Source: Aliikangiella sp. G2MR2-5 (GTDB lineage: Bacteria > Pseudomonadota > Gammaproteobacteria > Enterobacterales > Kangiellaceae). From it: a DNA stretch of 64,000 nt. The stretch covers positions 620,001 through 684,000 of the forward strand of contig NZ_JADPQF010000002.1 of assembly GCF_015687155.1 (NCBI RefSeq), given 5' to 3'. The notes under the pieces are model-generated. The model saw only the letters and a list, made by a program, of their open reading frames with translations. It searched no databases and was not told the origin of the DNA. The position numbers and the translations under genes were made by a program. This document shows, one piece after another, positions 5,143-21,627 of this stretch. Within the stretch, counting starts at the first letter, position 1; every line of letters starts with the position of its first letter.

Positions 5143-7854
5143 CTAAGCTGCCTCGAAATCAACAGCTACGACCTTATATTCAGGACATAGGGTTTCAAGA
5201 TCACACTCATCACTAGTAATTTTGTTTACCATGAGCTCTGGAAAATGAAATGTAGTAAATAATACTCCGGGCTTAACTTTTTCACTGATCATAGCTTTTA
5301 AGTTAACTTCACCTCGAGTTGAAAATAACCTGACCACGGATTGGTCACTGATGCTTTTCTTCATTGCATCTTGAGGATTAATTAGTAAGAGATCTTCACC
5401 AACGATATCCTTATTACCCGTTCGCCGAGTCATAGTTCCACAGTTATAGTGCTCAAGAATTCTGGATGTCGTTAAAATAAATGGAAAACTTTCGGCATGA
5501 TTCTCAAGCTCTTTTGACTCTTCAAAATCAAAGTAATAAAATTTCCCAAGTCCGCGCTTAAAAGTTTCGGTATGTAATATCTGAGTGTCGGTACCATCTG
5601 CCTGTACTGGCCACTGCTTGCCCTGCTCTCCAAGTTCAAGCCAGCGAATGCCTTCAAAAAATGGCACGATCTGAGAAATTTCTTCAAGCATGGTTTCTGG
5701 ATCATAATCTGCTTGTGAATAGCCCAGACGATTCATCATATCGACAATTATTTGACCATCAACCTTGCTACCGGCAATCGGTTTAACAGCAGCTCTCACT
5801 GCCTGGACGCGTCGCTCGCCATTAGTGAAAGTACCGGATTTTTCCAAAAATGAAGTGCCGGGCAATACCACATCGGCCAACTTAGCAGTCTCACTCATAA
5901 ATATTTCCTGAACCACCAGAAAGTCTAGATTTTCAAGACTTTGTACGACATGTTTTGTATTAGGATCAGTTTGAGCGACATCTTCTCCCATAATCCACAT
6001 AGCTTTGAGTGTTCCTGCTTGAGCAGCATTAAACATTTGGGGAATTTTCAATCCTGCTTCAGATGGAACCGGCACACCATATTTTTCTGAGTAATACTTT
6101 TGCCATTTCGGATCATCTACCGGCATATAACCTGCTCCCTGATGAGGCTGACATCCCATATCAGCAGCACCCTGCACATTATTTTGCCCGCGTAATGGAT
6201 TAACCCCAACCCCTTCTCGTCCAATATTACCAGTCATCATTGCGAGATCAGCGATACACATGACAGTTCTTGAGCCTTGTGAGTGTTCTGTTACACCGAG
6301 CCCATGAAAGCTCATCGCTCCGCGAGCAGACGCATAAGCTATAGCAGCTTCTCTAACTAGTTCACGCTTGACGCCAGAAATACTTTCCATATGGTCGATA
6401 TCAAGGGAAAGAATGGATTTTTTATAGTCACTCCAGCTCTCAGTGCGAGTATCAACAAAAGTTTGATCGACCAGTCCAGCCTCAATAATGTAATAGGCCA
6501 TCATATTGAGTACAGCTACATTAGTTCCCGGTCTTAACTGTAAATGATAGGTCGCATATCTTGCGACTTCTGTTTTAACCGGATCGATGACAATTGATGG
6601 CATTCCTTTCATTAATTTTTGTTTAATTTTGGCGCCAGTAACGGGGTGTGCGGATGTCGGATTGGCACCAATAACCATAATGAAGTCAGTTTTATCAAGA
6701 TCGGCGATTGAATTTGTTGCTGCACCAGTACCAAAACTCTGTTGCATTCCATGAGCAGTTGGGGAGTGACAAACACGGGCACAGCAATCAATATTATTGG
6801 TACCGATTACCGCGCGCATTAATTTTTGCATCAAATAATTCTCTTCATTTGGACATCTTGAAGATGAAATACCGGCAATCGCATCAGGACCGAAATCATT
6901 CTTGATCTGAGTTAATTTAGTCACAATGAGATCATAAGCTTCGTCCCAGCTAGCTTCAACAAATTCTCCCTGCTTCTTAATAAGCGGGCGGGTTAATCGA
7001 TCAGGATGATTATAAAATCGCCAGGCGTATCGACCTTTCAGGCAAGTGTGCCCTGAATTAACTTCGGCATTATTTGGAGCAGTAATTGACAAAATTTCAT
7101 TGTTCTTTACGGCAACTTCAAGATTACAGCCTACGCCACAATAAGAGCAAATGGTTCGAACTTTCTCGCTTGTCTGGTTCGATTTACTCTGGAAAACATC
7201 ACTTATCGCGGCTGTTGGACAGGTCTGCGCACAAGCTCCGCAGGAAACACAAGCCGAGTCATCGAATGAAAAATCTGCACCTTTTATAATTTTGCTGTCA
7301 AACCCTCGCCCCTGAATACCTAGCACAAACTCTCCCTGAATTTCATCGCAGGCTCTGACGCAGCGATAGCAATTAATACACTTTGACAAATCGCTACGCA
7401 TATAAGGGTGAGAAAGATCTTTTTCATAGTGACTATGGTCAGCCGCATTCTTATAGCGTACTTCACGAATACCCACCTCTGCGGCAACATCCTGTAATTC
7501 ACAGTTACCATTCGACTCGCACGTCAGGCAATCCAGCGGGTGATCGGTTAATACCAGCTCGACGATGTTTTTTCTGAGTTTTTGCACCGAAGACGACTGG
7601 GTTTGAATATGCATACCTTCAGCGATTGGCGTGTGACACGACGCCATAGTTTTACTTGGACCATCGGCCTGCAATGCGACATCGACCGAACAAACTCGGC
7701 AAGCACCGAAGGCGTCCAGCCGTGAATCATCACATAATGTTGGAATTCTGATCCGGTTGCGATTGGCAAACTGTAATATGGTTTCACCCGCTTCTATTTG
7801 ATAAGGGTGGCCGTCGATAAATGCGATTTTATTTAATTGCGGATTATTGGTCAT
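5143..7854 (-). CDS. fdsA: NAD-dependent formate dehydrogenase, molybdenum (alpha) subunit
   Basis: 903-residue catalytic subunit oxidising formate to CO2 at a bis-MGD molybdenum centre. Order: [2Fe-2S] domain (C41, C52, C55, C73), His-Cys cluster motif HPLDCLTCESNGNC, two 4Fe-4S ferredoxin motifs (CINCYRCVRAC, CVSCGACAQTC), then the molybdopterin domain with its own 4Fe-4S motif CSYCGVGC...CLKGR. The active-site ligand is C362 in ARVCHSP, where E. coli FdhF has selenocysteine, so no SECIS is needed. The C-terminal dinucleotide-binding domain ends near ECDLETLCPEYK. Soluble and cytosolic, no twin-arginine signal. Lies 22 bp downstream of the beta subunit in one operon. Confidence 0.95.
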   Translation of the reverse strand: MTNNPQLNKIAFIDGHPYQIEAGETILQFANRNRIRIPTLCDDSRLDAFGACRVCSVDVALQADGPSKTMASCHTPIAEGMHIQTQSSSVQKLRKNIVELVLTDHPLDCLTCESNGNCELQDVAAEVGIREVRYKNAADHSHYEKDLSHPYMRSDLSKCINCYRCVRACDEIQGEFVLGIQGRGFDSKIIKGADFSFDDSACVSCGACAQTCPTAAISDVFQSKSNQTSEKVRTICSYCGVGCNLEVAVKNNEILSITAPNNAEVNSGHTCLKGRYAWRFYNHPDRLTRPLIKKQGEFVEASWDEAYDLIVTKLTQIKNDFGPDAIAGISSSRCPNEENYLMQKLMRAVIGTNNIDCCARVCHSPTAHGMQQSFGTGAATNSIADLDKTDFIMVIGANPTSAHPVTGAKIKQKLMKGMPSIVIDPVKTEVARYATYHLQLRPGTNVAVLNMMAYYIIEAGLVDQTFVDTRTESWSDYKKSILSLDIDHMESISGVKRELVREAAIAYASARGAMSFHGLGVTEHSQGSRTVMCIADLAMMTGNIGREGVGVNPLRGQNNVQGAADMGCQPHQGAGYMPVDDPKWQKYYSEKYGVPVPSEAGLKIPQMFNAAQAGTLKAMWIMGEDVAQTDPNTKHVVQSLENLDFLVVQEIFMSETAKLADVVLPGTSFLEKSGTFTNGERRVQAVRAAVKPIAGSKVDGQIIVDMMNRLGYSQADYDPETMLEEISQIVPFFEGIRWLELGEQGKQWPVQADGTDTQILHTETFKRGLGKFYYFDFEESKELENHAESFPFILTTSRILEHYNCGTMTRRTGNKDIVGEDLLLINPQDAMKKSISDQSVVRLFSTRGEVNLKAMISEKVKPGVLFTTFHFPELMVNKITSDECDLETLCPEYKVVAVDFEAA

Positions 7855-7876
7855 GGTTCTAATTCAGTAGCGATTG

Positions 7877-9538
7877 CTACGCCTCCACCACAGGTATACG
7901 AGTGATCGAACCTGGTTCAAATAGCTCAGTCATTTCATCGAAAAAATATTCCAGTGCATTTTTTACCGGCAGCGGAACGCCACCACCTAATGCGCATAAG
8001 GAACCTTTTTCCATGGTTTCCAAAAGATCATCAAGTAAAACTCGATCGAGTTTGTTAGTGCCATTCAATGCATCTCTAAACATTTCTTTACCGCGGGTAG
8101 CCCCCAGGCGGCACGGGAAACATTTTCCACAAGATTCTGCGGCAGTAAAATCAAACAAATGCAAGATATATTCGGCAATGTTTTGCGTTTGTGGAATTCC
8201 GATAATACTGGCGTGTCCCAGCAGGAAACCGTTTTCACTGAAAGATTCAAAATCGAGTGTCAGCTTTTCAAAGTGGCTCGCCGGAACCAGTCCACCTAAA
8301 GGCCCGCCAATATGTAACGCTTTTACCGGTTTAACAAAGCCACCAGCCTTTTCAATAACAGCACTAAGAGACTCTCCCATGGCCACTTCGTAAATTCCAG
8401 GCTTGCTAAAACTACTGTCCAGTGAAAGTAATTTGGAACCGGTCGAACGTCCATTGCCGAGTGCATTAAACGCAGCGGCTGAATTTTCCAGAATCCAGTG
8501 AATGGCAGCGAATGTTTCAACATTATTTAAAATAGTCGGTTTTCCAAAAAGTCCTTTGACTGTCGGAAAAGGCGGCCGCACCGAAACCATGGGCCTTTGT
8601 CCTTCAATCGAGCGCAATAATGCGGTTTCCTCACCACAAATATAAGCACCGGCCCCACGAATAATTTTAAATTGAAACTCAAAATTTAATGCCTTATCCA
8701 ATTCCAGCTTTTCGAAGTCTTCAATCGCTTGCTGAATTTGTTCAACCGATTGCGGATACTCATCACGGATATAAAGGACGCCCCAATGGGCTCCAGCAAG
8801 ATAGCCCGCGGTCAACATACCAAATAGAACTGCATGGGGTCTTTGTTCCATCAGATATCGGTCTGAGAATGCTCCAGGATCACCTTCATCGGCATTACAC
8901 ACAATATATTTTTCAGCGGATGTTTCATTGGCGCAGGACTGCCACTTAACCCCCGTAGGAAATCCAGCGCCACCTCTACCTCGTAGTCCAGAGTCGATAA
9001 TTTGTTGAAGCAAGTTTTCTTTGGAGTGCGCTTGACTCAACTTGACCAGAAGCTGGTAGTAATCGTCAACACTAGCTATCGATTCTGTCAGCAAAGGTTT
9101 ATCCAACAGGCAATCAACAAGATAGTTCTCCATCGAATTTTTTCGTTCTGAGAGAATACCTGAAAGAGATTGGATATCATCGCCTGAATAGTTGATGCCA
9201 TCGAGCTGAAAAGCAGCATTTTCATGGCAGCGCCCCAAACAGGTGACGTGTCCAACTTCGCTGCTGCCAAATTCATTTTCCAGAGCTTGTCGTACACTAT
9301 CCTGAGATCCGGCACAGAGGCAGGAAGAACCATTACAGACGTAAGCTTTTTTACCGGCATTTTCTCCCTGAATAAAATCATAGGCCGTTGAAGGACCATA
9401 AACGCTGGACTCGCCGACTTTAAAGTTTTTAGCAATTTCCTTCAGTCGCACCGGCTCGCCTTTTGCCTGCACAATAGCTTCGAAAAGGTTGTCTTCCAGC
9501 CCTTTACGGGCAGAAAGTTTGGATAGATTTTCTGACAT
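7877..9538 (-). CDS. fdsB: Formate dehydrogenase beta subunit, NuoE-NuoF type fusion (FMN/NADH)
   Basis: 553 residues passing electrons from the alpha subunit through Fe-S clusters and FMN to NAD+. Residues 1-125 are a compact NuoE-like module: a helical part ending SSVYGPSTAYDFI, then a thioredoxin-like [2Fe-2S] site C68, C73, C100, C104. The NuoF-like part has the FMN/NADH loop GRGGAGFPTGVKW, then YIVCNADEGDPGAF, a SLBB-like region and the 4Fe-4S motif ESCGKCFPCRLG with a final Cys in SLCALGGG. No separate FdsG gamma gene is visible, so the fused N-terminus probably serves that role. First gene of the operon; preceded by a 133-bp region with repeated TATCGAT elements. Confidence 0.93.
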   Translation of the reverse strand: MSENLSKLSARKGLEDNLFEAIVQAKGEPVRLKEIAKNFKVGESSVYGPSTAYDFIQGENAGKKAYVCNGSSCLCAGSQDSVRQALENEFGSSEVGHVTCLGRCHENAAFQLDGINYSGDDIQSLSGILSERKNSMENYLVDCLLDKPLLTESIASVDDYYQLLVKLSQAHSKENLLQQIIDSGLRGRGGAGFPTGVKWQSCANETSAEKYIVCNADEGDPGAFSDRYLMEQRPHAVLFGMLTAGYLAGAHWGVLYIRDEYPQSVEQIQQAIEDFEKLELDKALNFEFQFKIIRGAGAYICGEETALLRSIEGQRPMVSVRPPFPTVKGLFGKPTILNNVETFAAIHWILENSAAAFNALGNGRSTGSKLLSLDSSFSKPGIYEVAMGESLSAVIEKAGGFVKPVKALHIGGPLGGLVPASHFEKLTLDFESFSENGFLLGHASIIGIPQTQNIAEYILHLFDFTAAESCGKCFPCRLGATRGKEMFRDALNGTNKLDRVLLDDLLETMEKGSLCALGGGVPLPVKNALEYFFDEMTELFEPGSITRIPVVEA

Positions 9539-9614
9539 CTCGTTTTGTCCTGATTGGGCAAAATTTTCATTGCCCTGTGTTTAACTTTTATTTTAGTTAT
9601 TCAAATTTTAAATC

Positions 9615-9640
9615 TATCGATAATAGCGAGTATCGATTAT
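9615..9640. promoter_or_regulatory. Candidate operator: paired TATCGAT repeats
   Basis: TATCGATAAT (9615-9624) and TATCGATTAT (9631-9640) form a direct repeat with 9 of 10 bases matching and a 16-bp spacing, and the TATCGATA core is itself a palindrome. It lies between fdhD and fdsB, about 77-102 bp upstream of fdsB. Such spacing puts both sites on a similar DNA face. A binding protein is not known. Confidence 0.35.
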
Positions 9641-9671
9641 CAAGATCTGTCGAATCTTGTTTTACTTCCCT

Positions 9672-10553
9672 TTACTCAGACTTCATACCGACCTCTACTT
9701 TTTGTCGATGAGAAGTATAGAGGTTGAACTGCTTATCCTTTGCAAACCCAACCAGTACCATATCAAACTGATTAGCTGCCTGTATTGCCAGATTGCTGGG
9801 CGCGCCCAATGCAACTATGGTTGAAAACCCGGCCATCACCGCTTTTTGTACCAGTTCAAAGCCGATTCTACCGGACAATACCAGGATACCCGATTGCAGC
9901 AGATCGTTTTGCAACAATTCAAAACCAATCAGCTTGTCGAGCGCATTGTGTCTGCCAACATCTTCAAAAAACGGCGAGTCATCAATCTCTAAGCAGCCAT
10001 TCTTTTCATAAACCAGACCTGCGGCATGAACCCCGCCAGTATCAGAAAAAAGTGGTTGCCTGGCCAACAGGGATTTTAGCTCTCTAACCAGGTCAACACT
10101 GAGCAATGTCGCAACAGGCTTCATTGCTCTTGATTGCTTTAATTCTAGCGCTTGCAAGCTTGTTTTACCACAAAGACCGCAGCCGGAATAACTGGTCAAA
10201 CGTCGAGATATTTTGGGTATATCGAGCGTCACTTTGTCGTCAATAGCCGCCTCAATCAGATTACCTTTCTGCTCAACTTCCAGTTCAGCTTTCAGTTCTG
10301 GTGTTGACAATCTCAGGATATCTTCAGCGTGCCGGATGACGCCTTCCGAAAATAGTAGTCCGTAAACCAGCTCAGTATCATGTCCCGGTGTGCGCATGGT
10401 CAGGCTGAAAACCTCTGAATTACCCTGATGAGACAAGCTAATCTGCAAAGGTTCTTCAACCCCCACCTTGTCCCTGCTTAAATTGATCCCGGAATTATCC
10501 ACTCGAAATCGGTTAAGCACCGCTTGCTGGCCAAGTTTTCCATCAAAAGTCAT
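9672..10553 (-). CDS. fdhD: Sulfur carrier/sulfurtransferase for formate dehydrogenase
   Basis: 293 residues. FdhD takes sulfur from a cysteine desulfurase and places it on the bis-MGD cofactor of formate dehydrogenase, which is inactive without it. The hallmark C125-G-L-C128 lies in SYSGCGLCGK; also visible are MRTPGHDTELVYGLLFSEG near residues 52-71, DTGGVHAAG and the nucleotide-site stretch FFEDVGRHNALDKLIG. The C-terminal third ends with LVGFAKDKQFNLYT, typical of the family. It is on the same strand and just upstream of fdsB, across a 133-bp gap that may hold a second promoter, so it belongs functionally to the fds cluster. Confidence 0.95.
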   Translation of the reverse strand: MTFDGKLGQQAVLNRFRVDNSGINLSRDKVGVEEPLQISLSHQGNSEVFSLTMRTPGHDTELVYGLLFSEGVIRHAEDILRLSTPELKAELEVEQKGNLIEAAIDDKVTLDIPKISRRLTSYSGCGLCGKTSLQALELKQSRAMKPVATLLSVDLVRELKSLLARQPLFSDTGGVHAAGLVYEKNGCLEIDDSPFFEDVGRHNALDKLIGFELLQNDLLQSGILVLSGRIGFELVQKAVMAGFSTIVALGAPSNLAIQAANQFDMVLVGFAKDKQFNLYTSHRQKVEVGMKSE

Positions 10554-13592: not shown

Positions 13593-14525
13593 GTGGCAAA
13601 CTCCGTCGATCTCGATAAATTAAAAGCTAAAACTGCGGAATTAAGAGATAAAACCGCGGCGTTCAGTTCATCCTGGAAAAAAAAGCTTAATCATCTAGGT
13701 CACTCCATCTCTCGCTCTGGAATGGAAGGGGTTCAACTCTGGTTTAAATCACATAGTCAATTAGAAGAATTTGAAGAAGCAGTCGCTGAACTGGTTAAAG
13801 CCAGTGAGGAGCCCGACTTCAAACTGCTTCAGGTCTATACCACTTTCAGTAGTTTTATACTTCCGGAAGAAGATATTGGTCAGGCAGAATGGTATAACAC
13901 GGCCCATCAACAACTTGAAAAATTTGAGTCCAGACTCAAAGAGAATAAACAGTGGGATATGTCATCCCTCAAGGCTTCGGTTAAGGAGCTTAAATTCATC
14001 AGTCAGGCTGAAGAATTTCATCAAAGATATCAAATTGAACCGATCAGACAAAAGGTGACCCAATTGTATCAATTCCTGGAACAATCAATTAGTGATTTCA
14101 AGCAATTTGAAAAGGAACGTCTGGAAGCCAGTCATCAGGAAGAAAAGCGTAAAGTCGCAGAGCTTGAAGCGAAAAAAGCCGAAGCAGTTGCTAAAAAAGC
14201 CATGCTGGAAAATATGAAAATTAAAGAAAAGCGGCTGGCTATTATTGAGGAAAAGAAAAGAAGACAGGCGGAAAAGGAAGCTGCCGAGGCTGAACTAAAG
14301 CTCAAAGAAAAAGAAATGGACAGTCAAGCAAAGCAGGCAGAACTGAGCAGGCAGGCTCAGCTTCAGGATGCCTATCTTGACTTACAAATTGAAGAAAAAC
14401 TCGGACAGTGGGAGCTAGATAGGTTAGTCGAAAAGCTCAAACAAAAAATTGAATCGAACACATTGACAGAAGATGATCGGCAAAGTCTTACAGCTTTTAT
14501 TGATTACAGCCAGTCAAAGATTTAG
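13593..14525 (+). CDS. Hypothetical coiled-coil protein
   Basis: 310 residues from GTG. No signal peptide or membrane segment. Residues 1-175 are mostly helical with KLKAKTAELRDKTAAF and a WFKSHSQLEEFEEAVAELV stretch; residues 180-275 are an uninterrupted charged coiled coil (repeats of EKK, AEAEL, KEKEM), and the tail ends in a short acidic helix. I do not recognise a family. A structural or adaptor role in the cytosol is plausible from shape only. It stands alone, preceded by the large hairpin at 13491-13546. Confidence 0.7.
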   Translation: MANSVDLDKLKAKTAELRDKTAAFSSSWKKKLNHLGHSISRSGMEGVQLWFKSHSQLEEFEEAVAELVKASEEPDFKLLQVYTTFSSFILPEEDIGQAEWYNTAHQQLEKFESRLKENKQWDMSSLKASVKELKFISQAEEFHQRYQIEPIRQKVTQLYQFLEQSISDFKQFEKERLEASHQEEKRKVAELEAKKAEAVAKKAMLENMKIKEKRLAIIEEKKRRQAEKEAAEAELKLKEKEMDSQAKQAELSRQAQLQDAYLDLQIEEKLGQWELDRLVEKLKQKIESNTLTEDDRQSLTAFIDYSQSKI

Positions 14526-14681: not shown

Positions 14682-15068
14682 TTACATACTTTTCAACCAA
14701 TCTAACGCCTCTCTAAGGTCCCAAAATGTTTTACTTATAAGCCCATTAGCAGCTGCTACGGTCCTTGAAAAATCAGTGGCAAAGCGGACATTTTTATCTA
14801 CATTCGCTTGAGACAAAACTATCGCAACAACAAATGACTGTGAATTACTAGTCATTGGCCAGGAATTCCCAAAATCGTCTAAGTTCTTCATTGAAACATT
14901 CTGATCTAAAACAGGTTCCCGCCAATCAGCTAGAATCTTAAAATAATTTTTATCCAGATTTATGTTTAAGGCTTCTTCTCTTGCGCTTACACTTTCTTCA
15001 TAATCAGTATTTCCAAAAAATTTCACAGAAATAATTTCGTCATCTTTAGTTGATATTTGATATGGCAT
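14682..15068 (-). CDS. STAS/SpoIIAA-like small protein
   Basis: 128 residues, ATG start. Alternating strands and helices (IISVKFFGNTDYEESV, then YFKILADWREP, then a C-terminal TFWDLREALDWLKS) resemble SpoIIAA-like/STAS single-domain proteins that bacteria use in signalling or as lipid-binding folds. There is no membrane segment. The match is by fold pattern only, and no partner kinase or phosphatase is adjacent, although the giant hybrid kinase lies about 400 bp away on the same strand. Confidence 0.55.
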   Translation of the reverse strand: MPYQISTKDDEIISVKFFGNTDYEESVSAREEALNINLDKNYFKILADWREPVLDQNVSMKNLDDFGNSWPMTSNSQSFVVAIVLSQANVDKNVRFATDFSRTVAAANGLISKTFWDLREALDWLKSM

Positions 15069-15462: not shown

Positions 15463-18400
15463 TCAGCTATTCAAAGCGTCAATTTCTTTTTTTGAGATTA
15501 AGATCGTCTGTTCAAGAGATTTCAAAAATTGCATCAATTCTCGCTCTGCGGGCACATATCCGGATTTCAGTTTTTCATTTAGCTTTTGGGCGAGCAAATT
15601 CAACTCTGAAAAACCCAACTCACCGAGAGAACCTTTAAGCTTATGTAAAATAACTTCTGCCGTTTCCAGATCATTTGCTGCGAGAAGCTCAGGAATTCGG
15701 ATATGGTCGATACAGTGATTGTTAACAAAAATTGTCAGCAATTCTCTGGCTAACTCACCGTCATCAAACTTTTCAGTTAAACGCCGCAAATTGGCACCAG
15801 AAACATGTAGGTCCTTGACATCTCTCTGGCTATTCGCTTCTTTATCTTCGTCGCTGCTAAATTTTGAAAAGTTTCGCTTATTTCCAATTAACTGTTCTAA
15901 AGTCGAAAAAAATACCGTGCGATTAATTGGCTTGGCGATATAATCATTCATTCCATGTTCCAGACATTTTTCCTTGTCACCTTTCATCACATTTGCGGTC
16001 ATTGCAACGATAGGAAAAGAATCCATGGCCTTAAATTCTCTAATTGCTTCGGCAGCTTGGTAACCATCCATCACTGGCATTTGCATATCCATTAATACCA
16101 GATCAAAATCCTTGCAGCGACATGCTTCAACAGCTTTTTGACCATTGTCGACAATAGTTACCTTAACGCCTGCTTTTTTCAGTATTTCACTAGCAACTTG
16201 TTGATTGATTGGGTTGTCTTCCGCAAGCAAAATGTGTTTGCCAACCAGTAGTGGTCGAATTCGACCGGTTGATTCTGATGCTTGTATCATTTGCTCTATG
16301 GCATCGTAGTCATATCTTATCAGATCTAGTACAAACCCCATTTTGGTTGGCTTATCAATTAGCTTGGTATTAGCATCCAGATTTTGAGAAATCCTAATCT
16401 GTTCACCAGGTTGCACCAACAGAAAAACAGGAGTATTAACTTCAAGCAATCTGGATACGGCCTCAAGTAATTCCAATCCCTTATTGGTGTCTTTTTCATT
16501 ATCAAGAAAAATATGAGACACATCTCTGGCAATTGGCTTTTTATTTTGTGTTTTGAGGATGAGTTCATCGTAGCTGAGCAATGAAAAATCTACCTTGAAC
16601 AAACTCGCGAAATCTTGCCATGCTTTTGCATAGTAACTATCATCGGTAACGAGTAACATATGAGTTCCCGAAAAGTCGTACTCATCAGCAGCTTGTTCCT
16701 TTTCTTCCGGCAGGTCAATTTCAAAAGTAAAGCAGCTACCTAAATCATTTTCTCCCTCAACTCTAATCCAGCCGTTCATCAGAGTGACCAGTTGCTGACA
16801 AATACTCAGGCCAAGCCCGGACCCTCCAAACTTTCTGGTCGTAGTATCATCTGCCTGGGTAAATGATGCAAATATAAGCTCTCTCTTCTCTTCTGGTATA
16901 CCTATTCCTGTATCAATTACTGAAAATTTCACTCTTTGATTGCCGATTGCAATTACTTGTAATCTAATCAAACCCTCTTCAGTAAACTTAATTGCGTTAC
17001 CGATAAGGTTTATCAAAATTTGTGAGAGCCTCAAAGAATCTCCAAATCGTTCAAGTGCCACATTTGGCTCGACATCAACAATCAGTTTTAAATTCTTCTC
17101 ATTAACCCTGCTGGAAAAAACGTCAACAACATTATCCAGAACCTCGATCAAACTGAAGCGTCTGTTTTCCAACTCAAGCTTTCCACGCTCGATTTTCGAA
17201 AAATCTAGAATATCGTTGATAATTTCCAAAAGAGAGGTCGAGGACTTTGAAATTTTATTAATATAGTCTCTCTGCTGCGCTGTTAGCGTTGTATCTCCGA
17301 GTAACGAGAGCATGCCAAGAATCCCATTCATGGGCGTTCTAATTTCGTGACTAACGGTCGCAAGGAAAGCCGACTTTGCCTTGTTTGCTTCCTCCGCTTT
17401 TCGAGTCTTTATTGCTAATTCAGAGTAGGCTCGACGCAACTCCCTTTCTGCTTGTTTTCGCTGCAGAGCATCAGCAATATGAGTAGACACAAAGCTCAAA
17501 ATTCCAATTTCTCTATCACCATAGAAATAAGATTCATCATAACTTTGTAAAACCATAATTCCGAGCACATGACCTGAGGACATCAATGGTACACCTACCC
17601 AATCAACCGCATAACTTCCAAGGTGAGTTATCTCGCCTTTCGCCTCCAGCTCTCTTATTTGTTTCTGATTAACATGAACAATTGATTTTCGACGATAGAC
17701 ATAACCGGTTAAACTTCTCCCAATCGGAATAACATCAGGAACATCTTTGTCGATTTCATCCACCACATAGTCAAAATTAAAGACCTTATTTTCTTCATCA
17801 ACCAATGCAATATAAAAACTCTTCACGTACATTAATCTTGAAAATATCTTGTGCAACTGTATATATAGCTCTAACTCTGTATCACACTGCTGTGGTGTCT
17901 CAGAAATTTCAAAAAGTGCCTTTTGTAACTCTTCTGAATCTCTGCGGTTTCGAATTTCTTCCTGGAGACGTTCATTGGTTATAGTAAGTTCCTGTGTCCT
18001 CTGTTTGACCTGCTCTTCGAGTCGAAGGTGATACTCTCTTTTTTCAATAGTTGAAACAATCGATTGCGCAACAAAGTTAAGAAGCTCTTGGTCAGCACTT
18101 GTAAACTTAATCGCTTCATCATACGACTGAACAGCCATAACGCCCATTGGCCCGTCACTTCCAATCAATGGCACTCCCAGATAATATTCGGAAGCAGGGC
18201 CTATAAGACATATTTTCCCATCCTCTTCCATCTCTAGTATTTGCTCTTTGTTAACTAGCAATGACTTACCAGACATGACGACCATTCTGGCAAGAGTTTT
18301 CTTACGTTTTTCCTTCGAAAGATTTTTGACAAAACTGTAATCATAAGTTTGATCCGAGTCCACAAAGTATGTCCAGTCCATGTCATCATTTTGTGGCTCC

Positions 18401-21400
18401 CAAAGTGCAATATAGAAATTTTCTGCGTAAATCAATCGCGATATTTCCCGATGTATTTTTTCGAACATTGAATTCATCGGAAGGTTTTTGTTCGCTAAGT
18501 TTGCGATATAGTAAAGTGCAGCCTGGGTAGCCTCACTTCGTTGCCTTACCTTCACTTGTTGTTCAAGAGAGGCGTTTGTTTCGGCGAGCTTAGCAGTACG
18601 TTCTTTTACTCGCTCCTCAAGTTCACTTTGTGCTCTTTTTCTTTCAAGAGTAATTGCAATATGCTGAGAAACGAATTCCAGCAACCCTAGTTCCTCCTGT
18701 CCAAGAACATGCTTCTCGTCATAGCTCTGGATTGTAAGTACACCAATAATTTTATTATCTAAAATTAGTGGAACACCTATCCAGTAAAGGGACTTTTTAC
18801 CAATTTTTTTCCCTGTCGATTGAAATATCTTTTCTCGATTATCAGGCGTTCTTAGTAGAGACTTCCCTGATGTCAAAACCTGACCGGTAGCTGTTTTTTT
18901 GATGTCTTCAAAAGGAATTCTTTCTAGCTCAGTACGATTGATACTATCTTTGGTATCCACAAAGTAGACAAATCTCAATTTACTTTCGCTCTCATCATAG
19001 AGGCAAATATAAAAATTTTCTGCATAAATTAGTTCAGAAATAATAGCATGCAAAGAGCGATATAATTCGTTCATATCTTCAGCTGACGAAGCAAGATCAG
19101 TAATCTGATATAATGCGGTCTGCAAGCGCTTCGCCCGCTCAGTCTTCTCAACTTGTTCTCTTAGTTCCTCAGTACGTTGTGCAACCAGAAGTTTTAGATA
19201 GTCCTTAGAGCGCTTTCTTTGCAGTGCGGTAGCAACATGCTGCCCAACAAATATCATTAACTCTTTATCAGAATTTGAAAAGCGCTTTTTCGGGAGATAA
19301 CTCTGAAGAGCCATAATCCCGATGATTGCACCATCAATTGACAGCGGAATACCAAGATAAGACTCGGTTTGCTGCCCCATCAAAGACAATCCATGCTTAA
19401 CTGCTATCTGACTAATTTCTTCTCCAGAAGCAAGTATGGGCATTCCGTTTGTCATAACATGACTAGTAAAACTTTTATTTAATGTATCTAAAGGCAACGC
19501 AGCGATTGCTTCAACATCATAATCATCCATGGTATCAACATAATAAACCATTCTAATGGTATTGCTTTCTTCGTCTTTTAGAGCAATATAAAAATTCTCA
19601 CAATACATTAGTGAACTAATGATTCGATGCAGCTCCTGATAAAAAGAATTAAGATTAAGGTCCATGTTCGCGAGGTTTGCAATCTGATAGAGAACTGATT
19701 GAGTAGCCTCTGTTTTCTTTCTCGTTTCAATTTCTTTTTCAAGTTCGTATGTACGCTCCTTAATAAGAAGCTCTAATCCCGCTTGTGACTGCTTTCTTGT
19801 CAATGCCTGTGCTATTTGACTGGATACGTATTCTAATAATTCGAGGTGCCAATTTTCATATATTGTGTCTTTCTTGAAACTCTGTATAACCACGACACCA
19901 ATTACTTTTCCGGCAAATTTTAGTGGAACACCTAGCCAGGAGTAAAATGGTTCACTAACAAGTTCGATTCCTTCACGCTCTCTGAGCCGCTCAAATTCAG
20001 CCGAGCCAATGAGTAAAGAGTGACCTTCTCTTACTAGCTTTGTTGCCAGTCGCTTTTCCGACAGAGAGATAGACTGTCCAGTTAAATTGACAGAACGACT
20101 ATATTCTGAGAAATATTTAAATTCCAGAGAGTTTTTTTCCTGGTCTACAAGTGCAATATATAAACTATCTATAAAGAAGAGCTCGCTAATCACCTGATAA
20201 ACACCTTGATAGAATTCATGCATATCTTCTGCGCCAGAGGCCAGACTGGCAAGCTCATATAGTGCAGTTTGTAATTTCTTAGCTTTTGTTATTTCTTCTA
20301 ACTGATTTGTTAAGGTCTCGTTTACCTGTGTTAACTGATTTGTTCTTTGATCAACCAGCTCTTCCAAAGCGAGCTGCTTGCGTTTTCGTTGAATCGCAGT
20401 AGCAACAGGTTTTGCAGCATATTCCATTAGCTGTTTATCTCGCTCAGTAAAGAAAACACCGTCTTTATACGACTGGAGCGTCATAACACCAAACACTTCA
20501 TTGTCAATAATAAGAGGTGTACCTAACCAGGAGTTTGCCAAAGGACCATGATATTGGATATGGTTAGCATCACACAAAGCCGCGAGTTGATTGCCGTCAC
20601 ACAAAATAGCTTTTCCAGTCTTAAGAAGATGACCTGTCAAGCTTTGCCTGACGACCTCCATAGGAATTTTCTTCAACTCGTCAATAGTCATTTCATCTTT
20701 TGTATCCGAAAAATAAACAAAAGATACGTCATTTGAAATATTCGACTTTAGTACAATGTAAAAGTTTTCGGCGTAAATAAAATCACTAATGATACTGTGC
20801 AATTCTGAATAGAAGTCATCCAGACTTATTTGCGAGTTGGCTAGCTCTGATAGTTGAAACAGTGCACTTTCTATTTTTTGGCGATAGTTCTTTTGTTCTA
20901 TTTCTTCCGAAAGCTTTCTCGTTCTTTCAGCAACTTCCTTCTCAAGGCTAACTTTACTTTGCTTTCTATCTAAGGTCGATGCAATCACATAAGATACATA
21001 GTCAAAAAGCTCCTTATGCCACTGCTCAAACAGAATATTTTCCTTATAGCTCTGAACAACAATTAGCCCAAGGGTTTTATTTTCAGATATTAATGGAGAA
21101 CCTAGCCAGGACTTGGACGCTGGACCAATCCTTTTTATTTGTCCTTCTGTTTCGAGTGCCCGAATATCCCTTTCAGACAGCAGTATCGTTTTTCCCTTGC
21201 GTATTACATAGGAAGACAGGCTGTTGGCATTGAGTGGAATAGTCAGACTGCTTTCCTCATAGTCCTTATCTTCTGAATCGATAAAATAGACGATGCGTAG
21301 TACCTGTTTCTCCTGATCCAAGAGAGCAATATAGAAATTTTCGGCATACACCAGCGAAGAGATCGTATGGTGCAAAGAAGAATAGAAATCTTGCATCGAC

Positions 21401-21627
21401 TCTGCGCCGGACGCTAGCTGGGAGATTTTGAATATTGCACTCTGAATATGTTCTGCCTTAGTGCTTTCCTCCTGCTGCTTTACCAGATTCAGCTTCAGAG
21501 CTTCCAGCTCCTGTTCTTTTTGAGCTAACTTTGCTTCCAATTTTGAGCTTGTTTGAATAGCAGTTTGTGAAATATCTGCTGATTGCTTTTTATTCTCAAT
21601 ATTCTTGTTCTTACCTGGAGGCGGCAT
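15463..21627 (-). CDS. Giant hybrid histidine kinase: seven GAF, HisKA, HATPase, two REC, HPt
   Basis: 2054 residues, no membrane segment, so a cytosolic sensor. After a short coiled coil come seven GAF modules of one kind. Their aligned strand (A-E-N-F-Y-I-A-L and variants) begins at residues 96, 287, 487, 677, 870, 1069 and 1269, a period of 190-200. Each module contains a W/Y-LG-x-PL strand and a GVM-x-x-QSY strand and is joined by an ERT-type coiled-coil linker. Then HisKA with H1427 ([10 protein letters not shown]), HATPase_c ([21 protein letters not shown]), a degenerate receiver (about 1655-1790, acid pocket partly kept), a good receiver with D1847 ([12 protein letters not shown]), and HPt with H1995 ([11 protein letters not shown]). 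This is a full His-Asp-His relay of BarA/ArcB type. Ligand unknown; no cognate regulator is adjacent. Confidence 0.92.

Follow-up and report, generated by a model that had tools for sequence, protein, structure and literature searches.

The window analyzed here, a 64,000-nucleotide stretch of Aliikangiella sp. G2MR2-5 DNA, encodes a hybrid histidine kinase of 2054 amino acids with seven GAF domains. This array likely acts as a phase-locked coiled-coil signal integrator that feeds a His-Asp-His relay, a reading based upon sequence comparison and structure prediction. The helices that join the GAFs change length only in seven-residue steps. This points to a single unbroken, twisted spine as the route by which all seven sensors would influence the kinase. 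The wider question is how the states of several sensor domains in series are relayed to a single kinase.

Linker lengths and the predicted helical spine

Seven stretches of the protein score above the Pfam cutoff with each of three GAF models (GAF_2, E = 1e-73 and 246 bits; GAF, E = 2e-57; GAF_3, E = 2e-41). The initial annotation, made from the sequence alone, had placed the start of the aligned strand of each GAF at residues 96, 287, 487, 677, 870, 1069, and 1269, all of which are exact. The repeat of 190 to 200 residues that it described is also real and is composed of a variable loop plus a linker with just two lengths, 44 and 51 residues. The gene, its modules, and the linker discussed below are as follows (evidence in parentheses).

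15463 to 21627, minus strand: seven-GAF hybrid histidine kinase gene, 2054 amino acids (intact open reading frame, Pfam domains, syntenic orthologues)
20944 to 21516, minus strand: GAF module 1, including the helix that precedes it, residues 38 to 228 (module alignment; by-position grouping with orthologues; sister to module 3, 100/99)
20344 to 20943, minus strand: GAF module 2, residues 229 to 428 (module alignment; groups with modules 4 and 6, 95/95 and 95/93)
19774 to 20343, minus strand: GAF module 3, residues 429 to 618 (fastest evolving; subfamily His, Asn, and Asp lost in this species)
19195 to 19773, minus strand: GAF module 4, residues 619 to 811 (module alignment; groups with module 2)
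18598 to 19194, minus strand: GAF module 5, residues 812 to 1010 (module alignment and trees; AlphaFold2 model of modules 5 and 6)
17998 to 18597, minus strand: GAF module 6, residues 1011 to 1210 (AlphaFold2, continuous helix to module 5)
17401 to 17997, minus strand: GAF module 7, residues 1211 to 1409 (kinase-proximal and most conserved GAF; GAF-to-His spacing of 47)
19114 to 19248, minus strand: linker from module 4 to module 5, residues 794 to 838, 44 residues (51 in G001 and G003)

Each linker was measured between two fixed anchor positions, one in the final helix of a GAF and the other in the initial helix of the GAF that follows. In the window kinase, the lengths are 44, 51, 44, 44, 51, and 51 residues. 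When the sample is widened to all of the arrays plus roughly 60 further proteins with GAFs, all 91 GAF-GAF linkers are 44, 51, 58, or 65 residues long, each length being 2 modulo 7. Spacers between a GAF and a GGDEF domain are 49, 56, 63, or 70 residues long in 41 of 41 cases (0 modulo 7), and the spacing from GAF to His is 47 residues in 7 of 7. The control, a loop inside the GAF, ranges from 71 to 81 residues in single-residue increments and has every residue class modulo 7 represented. In a tree of the 91 pairs, linker length changed six times and never left its class, whereas the loops changed 23 and 25 times. Six in-class changes would arise by chance with a probability of about 8.5e-6 if changes were random among the seven classes, a figure that assumes equal classes and a single tree. 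Judging from the sequences, the linker between modules 4 and 5 has lost exactly one heptad in the window kinase's own lineage. Inserted heptads follow an N-x-x-L pattern, and large hydrophobic residues are concentrated at one heptad phase (0.55 versus 0.09 to 0.27).

An AlphaFold2 model of modules 5 and 6 (75 aligned pairs) has a mean predicted local distance difference test score (pLDDT) of 93.9 and contains one 68-residue helix that runs from GAF5 into GAF6. Two features of a heptad-phased signaling-helix linker, length steps in multiples of 7 and a continuous helix, are thus found here. The solved folds closest to this pair are the tandem GAFs of PDE5A, PDE6, and PDE2A (Z of about 15 to 19), CyaB2, and phytochromes. 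The root mean square deviations to tandem-GAF folds are large (17 to 24 over 310 to 363 residues) because the angle between the GAFs differs.

The mechanism that we propose is that of a soluble BarA/GacS-like phosphorelay kinase whose input would be seven GAF sensors threaded on one helical spine. The last helix of each GAF would run unbroken into the first helix of the next, and the spine would continue into the DHp helix. The model contains this helix for modules 5 and 6, and we infer its continuity through all seven. In histidine kinases, the DHp domain forms a parallel dimer, and the array would accordingly be expected to form a parallel coiled-coil dimer as well. With linkers that change by whole heptads, each GAF would meet its neighbor at the same rotational phase. 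Small molecules binding in one or several of the GAFs may then twist the coiled coil or shift its register; such effects would accumulate along the spine and determine the balance between kinase and phosphatase. The order of the domains suggests that phosphate would pass from H1427 to D1847 to H1995 and then to an unlinked response regulator. A phase-locked helical spine thereby replaces the spring-like integrator that had been suggested for the array.

Several points weigh against this reading. The model of modules 5 and 6 is a monomer with a predicted TM score of 0.67, which leaves the relative placing of the two GAFs uncertain. The coiled coil between the GAFs of solved prokaryotic pairs is described as antiparallel (PMC1592074). 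The six changes in linker length come from one quick tree, and the chance of 1/7 per change presumes that insertions and deletions of all lengths are equally likely. The seven-residue pattern was spotted first in the window gene and its orthologues and was then tested on other proteins. Finally, module 3 looks degenerate in this species, and not all seven modules need bind anything.

Origin of the array and its copy number

The seven modules are clearly homologous to one another but old, as judged from pairwise identities of 25 to 38% in the module alignment, which disposes of the concern that they might be unrelated. A recent expansion of the array is ruled out, as the DNA of the modules is no longer alignable past matches of just 20 to 32 bases. 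The initial annotation had argued for growth by internal duplication from the Y-I-A-L and QSY strands that the modules have in common. However, these motifs also occur in about 60 other GAF proteins, most of them GGDEF-EAL enzymes with two GAFs, so they are no proof of internal duplication. By this sequence comparison, they are hallmarks of the whole GAF subfamily, which is found mostly as pairs in GGDEF-EAL proteins.

The module phylogeny that had been proposed as a check was run twice, with 65 modules in the first tree and different outgroups in the second. In the first tree, each module position clusters with the equal position in other species; therefore, the array predates the genus. Modules 1 and 3 are sisters in both trees (100/98 in the first and 100/99 in the second), and modules 2 and 4 fall together in both (95/95 in the second), with module 6 joining them in the second (95/93). 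Because these are sister pairs, the simplest reading, and a supported one, is that a two-GAF unit was duplicated to give modules 1-2 and 3-4. Growth by internal duplication thus stands for at least one two-GAF unit, whereas modules 5 and 7 may or may not have arisen in this way. An odd/even scheme (1/3/5 and 2/4/6), hinted at by the first tree, was dropped: the second tree kept 2/4/6 but did not join module 5 with modules 1 and 3, a 1+3+5 clade that the approximately unbiased (AU) test does not reject (P = 0.34).

Module 7 groups with the first GAF of a GGDEF-EAL protein from the same genome (98/87 in the first tree and 99/94 in the second). Together with a kinase from another family (G048) that has only modules x, 5, 6, and 7, this lends support to recruitment of modules 5 to 7, or of module 7 alone, by fusion from GGDEF-EAL proteins, leaving only modules 1 to 4 as internal copies. 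We rate this origin as credible though somewhat short of an even chance, since a single clade of all the array modules is disfavored but not rejected by the AU test (P = 0.09), a clade of modules 1 to 6 is likewise not rejected (P = 0.24), and the tree has many long branches. Recruitment by fusion concerns origin and is compatible with the phase-locked spine as a mechanism.

A search for orthologues with different numbers of GAFs found relatives with 5 and 4 copies as well as three with 7, one of which is divided between contig ends. In two other species of the genus, the orthologue is intact and encodes seven GAFs in a protein of 2063 or 2072 residues. In a third (G006), the gene is divided into halves that each sit at the end of a contig, with the flanking genes matching on either side, which is likely an assembly gap. 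At least two sampled members of the genus have no orthologue at the thresholds used, and the gene is therefore accessory. In another genus of the same family, one genome (G018) encodes five GAFs, corresponding to modules 1, 2, 3, 4, and 7, and another (G012) encodes four, one of them 2/4-like and followed by 5, 6, and 7; the G048 kinase also has four. Since G018 holds modules 1 to 4 and G012 holds modules 5 and 6, parsimony indicates that their ancestor probably had all seven and that each lineage lost modules. The relatives with five or four GAFs most likely arose by loss. The array would then have grown by duplication of a two-GAF unit, as the trees support, and presumably shrunk in relatives by loss of whole modules. 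Among the genomes searched (up to 400 at each of the order, class, and phylum levels), no further kinase turned up that has at least four GAFs of this type. A scan of the species genome collection likewise found no GAF array of this type, its matches being taken up by the kinase core. The genes in G018 and G012 lie in a different neighborhood (L123 and L124, respectively), with yqgE-like and ruvX-like genes and, in L124, pilT/pilU-like genes.

Conservation and possible sensing by individual modules

The hallmarks of the GAF subfamily, in module 5 numbering, are H860, N871, D891, W949, G951, P953, G962, Q967, and Y969, which are 88 to 100% conserved. Among the three seven-GAF species, modules 4 to 7 are 60 to 77% identical, versus 44 to 66% for modules 1 to 3, and module 7 is 70 to 77% identical. 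Module 3 is the least conserved (44% identity to its orthologues), and its signature residues have changed from H to Y, N to S, and D to E. Because of both features, this copy may be decaying in this species, as far as its sequence indicates.

This uneven conservation and the state of module 3 lend weight to a passive rod, in which one or two GAFs sense (probably module 7, perhaps modules 4 to 6) and the rest serve for spacing and dimerization, with the phase kept for stability. Relatives that are missing modules 1 to 3 or 5 and 6 still have the kinase, as such a rod would allow. However, decay of a mere spacer would be expected to reach modules 1, 2, and 4 to 7, and these retain 25 to 30 of the 33 signature residues. 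We therefore regard the passive rod as possible but doubtful.

A chromophore or heme in only some copies had also been suggested. The canonical bilin Cys-His motif was not found in the protein, and the six Cys residues of the array are scattered. The cyclic-nucleotide NKFDE motif was also not found in the protein (searched as NK...F...D[EQ]), although a fold-level binder without the motif is possible. The absence of recognized bilin and cyclic-nucleotide motifs and a long rod suited to clustering would fit a platform on which the GAFs contact partner proteins or assemble into higher-order clusters instead of binding small molecules, but this is improbable, as the conserved H, N, D, W, Q, and Y are identical in GGDEF-EAL proteins with other outputs, which a common pocket would fit better.

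For the phase-locked spine, one consequence can be put forward more tentatively. Because every junction obeys an exact rule (7n + 2 between GAFs, 7n before GGDEF, and 47 before His), the array might be a natural plug-in sensor stack to which GAFs are added or from which they are dropped without retuning, with seven ligand inputs summed on one spine. The family provides natural four-, five-, and seven-sensor versions of one kinase along with a strict length rule, which makes the coiled-coil phase model testable. The linker length rule could also serve as a guide for constructing sensors with several inputs.

The kinase core, its gene, and related systems

Downstream of the seven GAF stretches, Pfam places HisKA, HATPase_c, one Response_reg, and Hpt, in that order; a further receiver precedes the Response_reg match.

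17182 to 17379, minus strand: HisKA with the phospho-accepting H1427 (Pfam, E = 2.5e-21)
16708 to 17043, minus strand: HATPase_c (Pfam, E = 1.8e-28)
16279 to 16665, minus strand: degenerate receiver, about residues 1655 to 1783 (no Pfam match; receiver-like alternation of strands and helices in AlphaFold2; alignment)
15910 to 16233, minus strand: receiver with D1847 (Pfam, E = 1.2e-27)
15514 to 15744, minus strand: Hpt with H1995 (Pfam, E = 6e-8; absent from the five- and four-GAF orthologues of another genus)

The HisKA H-box, the HATPase_c G-box, and a C-terminal receiver with an acceptor Asp identify a hybrid histidine kinase, and an Hpt with a His after the receiver makes the phosphorelay tripartite. 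The complete relay H1427-D1847-H1995 was already recognized in the initial annotation, with all three positions exact, as was one extra degenerate receiver. The latter sits between the HATPase and the true receiver and keeps its acceptor-site D1709 and a Lys, but one member of the acid pair and the Thr/Ser are missing, so it does not have the full set of functional-receiver residues (acid pair, acceptor Asp, Thr/Ser, and Lys). Across the orthologues, the acceptor Asp is kept in six of seven and the Lys in five of seven, and in every one seen the Thr/Ser and one of the two acids are absent. These losses, together with evolution much faster than that of the true receiver (40 and 32% identity to orthologues versus 73 and 65%), make degenerate the right label. 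Confidence in the AlphaFold2 model of the C-terminal region is moderate (pLDDT of 73). The G018 and G012 orthologues do not encode Hpt in the same open reading frame. No clear membrane segment was found in the kinase; the highest 19-residue hydropathy, 1.59, is within the GAF array.

The reading frame begins with ATG and has 2054 codons with zero internal stops. A join of two separate genes is excluded because the two intact seven-GAF orthologues from the genus lie in the same place, beside an rsmD-like gene. Their locus is flanked by this methyltransferase gene on one side and by the gene of window positions 13593 to 14525 on the other. Directly downstream of the kinase, on the same strand and after a gap of 394 bases, is a 128-amino-acid open reading frame (14682 to 15068, minus strand) that is absent beside the orthologues; neither it nor the flanking 310-amino-acid frame has a Pfam match. 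An antisense frame of 108 amino acids (16940 to 17266, plus strand) lies within the kinase gene and is open in the orthologues too (44 to 59% identity), and it is probably not a gene but a by-product of the conserved coding frame of the kinase. An Rfam search of the window gave no match. Positions 5143 to 10553 contain genes like a molybdenum NAD-linked formate dehydrogenase set and an fdhD-like gene, which are near the kinase also in G003 and G006. The whole 5.0-Mb genome (G000) has about 74 places that match the kinase, mostly in its core, and its two-component repertoire is thus very large.

Both seven-GAF arrays and heptad linkers have precedents. What seems new is the exceptionless rule in the sampled GAF subfamily, the soluble seven-GAF His-Asp-His kinase that is constructed by this rule, and expansion in units of two GAFs, no description of which was found in the open-license literature. 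Seven GAFs in one protein are not unprecedented, since PtxD of Nostoc punctiforme, a cyanobacteriochrome with repeated GAFs, is reported to have seven (PMC6696110). The window kinase resembles PtxD and other cyanobacteriochromes in its long serial array but lacks their Cys-His bilin motif. PDE2A, PDE5A, PDE6, and CyaB2, the nearest folds to GAF5-6, have only two GAFs at another inter-GAF angle, and the NKFDE motif is absent here.

The best NCBIfam match is to the BarA/GacS tripartite kinases (Escherichia coli BarA, NF008318), which have the same HisKA-HATPase-receiver-Hpt order. The match spans residues 1403 to 2041 and scores 440.7 bits, below the BarA equivalog cutoff of 890. Unlike BarA, the window kinase has no membrane sensor but has a soluble seven-GAF input and the extra degenerate receiver.

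The two-GAF GGDEF-EAL proteins of gammaproteobacteria (e.g., G000:C23:579020) belong to the same GAF subfamily and have the same heptad-phased linkers, but they differ in having two GAFs and a cyclic di-GMP enzyme output. One such protein is encoded in the same genome (L127, G000:C23:575000-585000) with a 58-residue (7n + 2) linker, and its first GAF is among the closest outside relatives of module 7. Regular spacing in arrays of PAS and GAF domains has been interpreted as hinting at integration through coiled coils, and in engineered LOV kinases the length of the sensor-kinase linker acts with heptad dependence (PMC6798134). In PadC, among the phytochrome-linked diguanylate cyclases, the length classes of the coiled-coil linker are also set by heptads; here, the rule has zero exceptions in 91.
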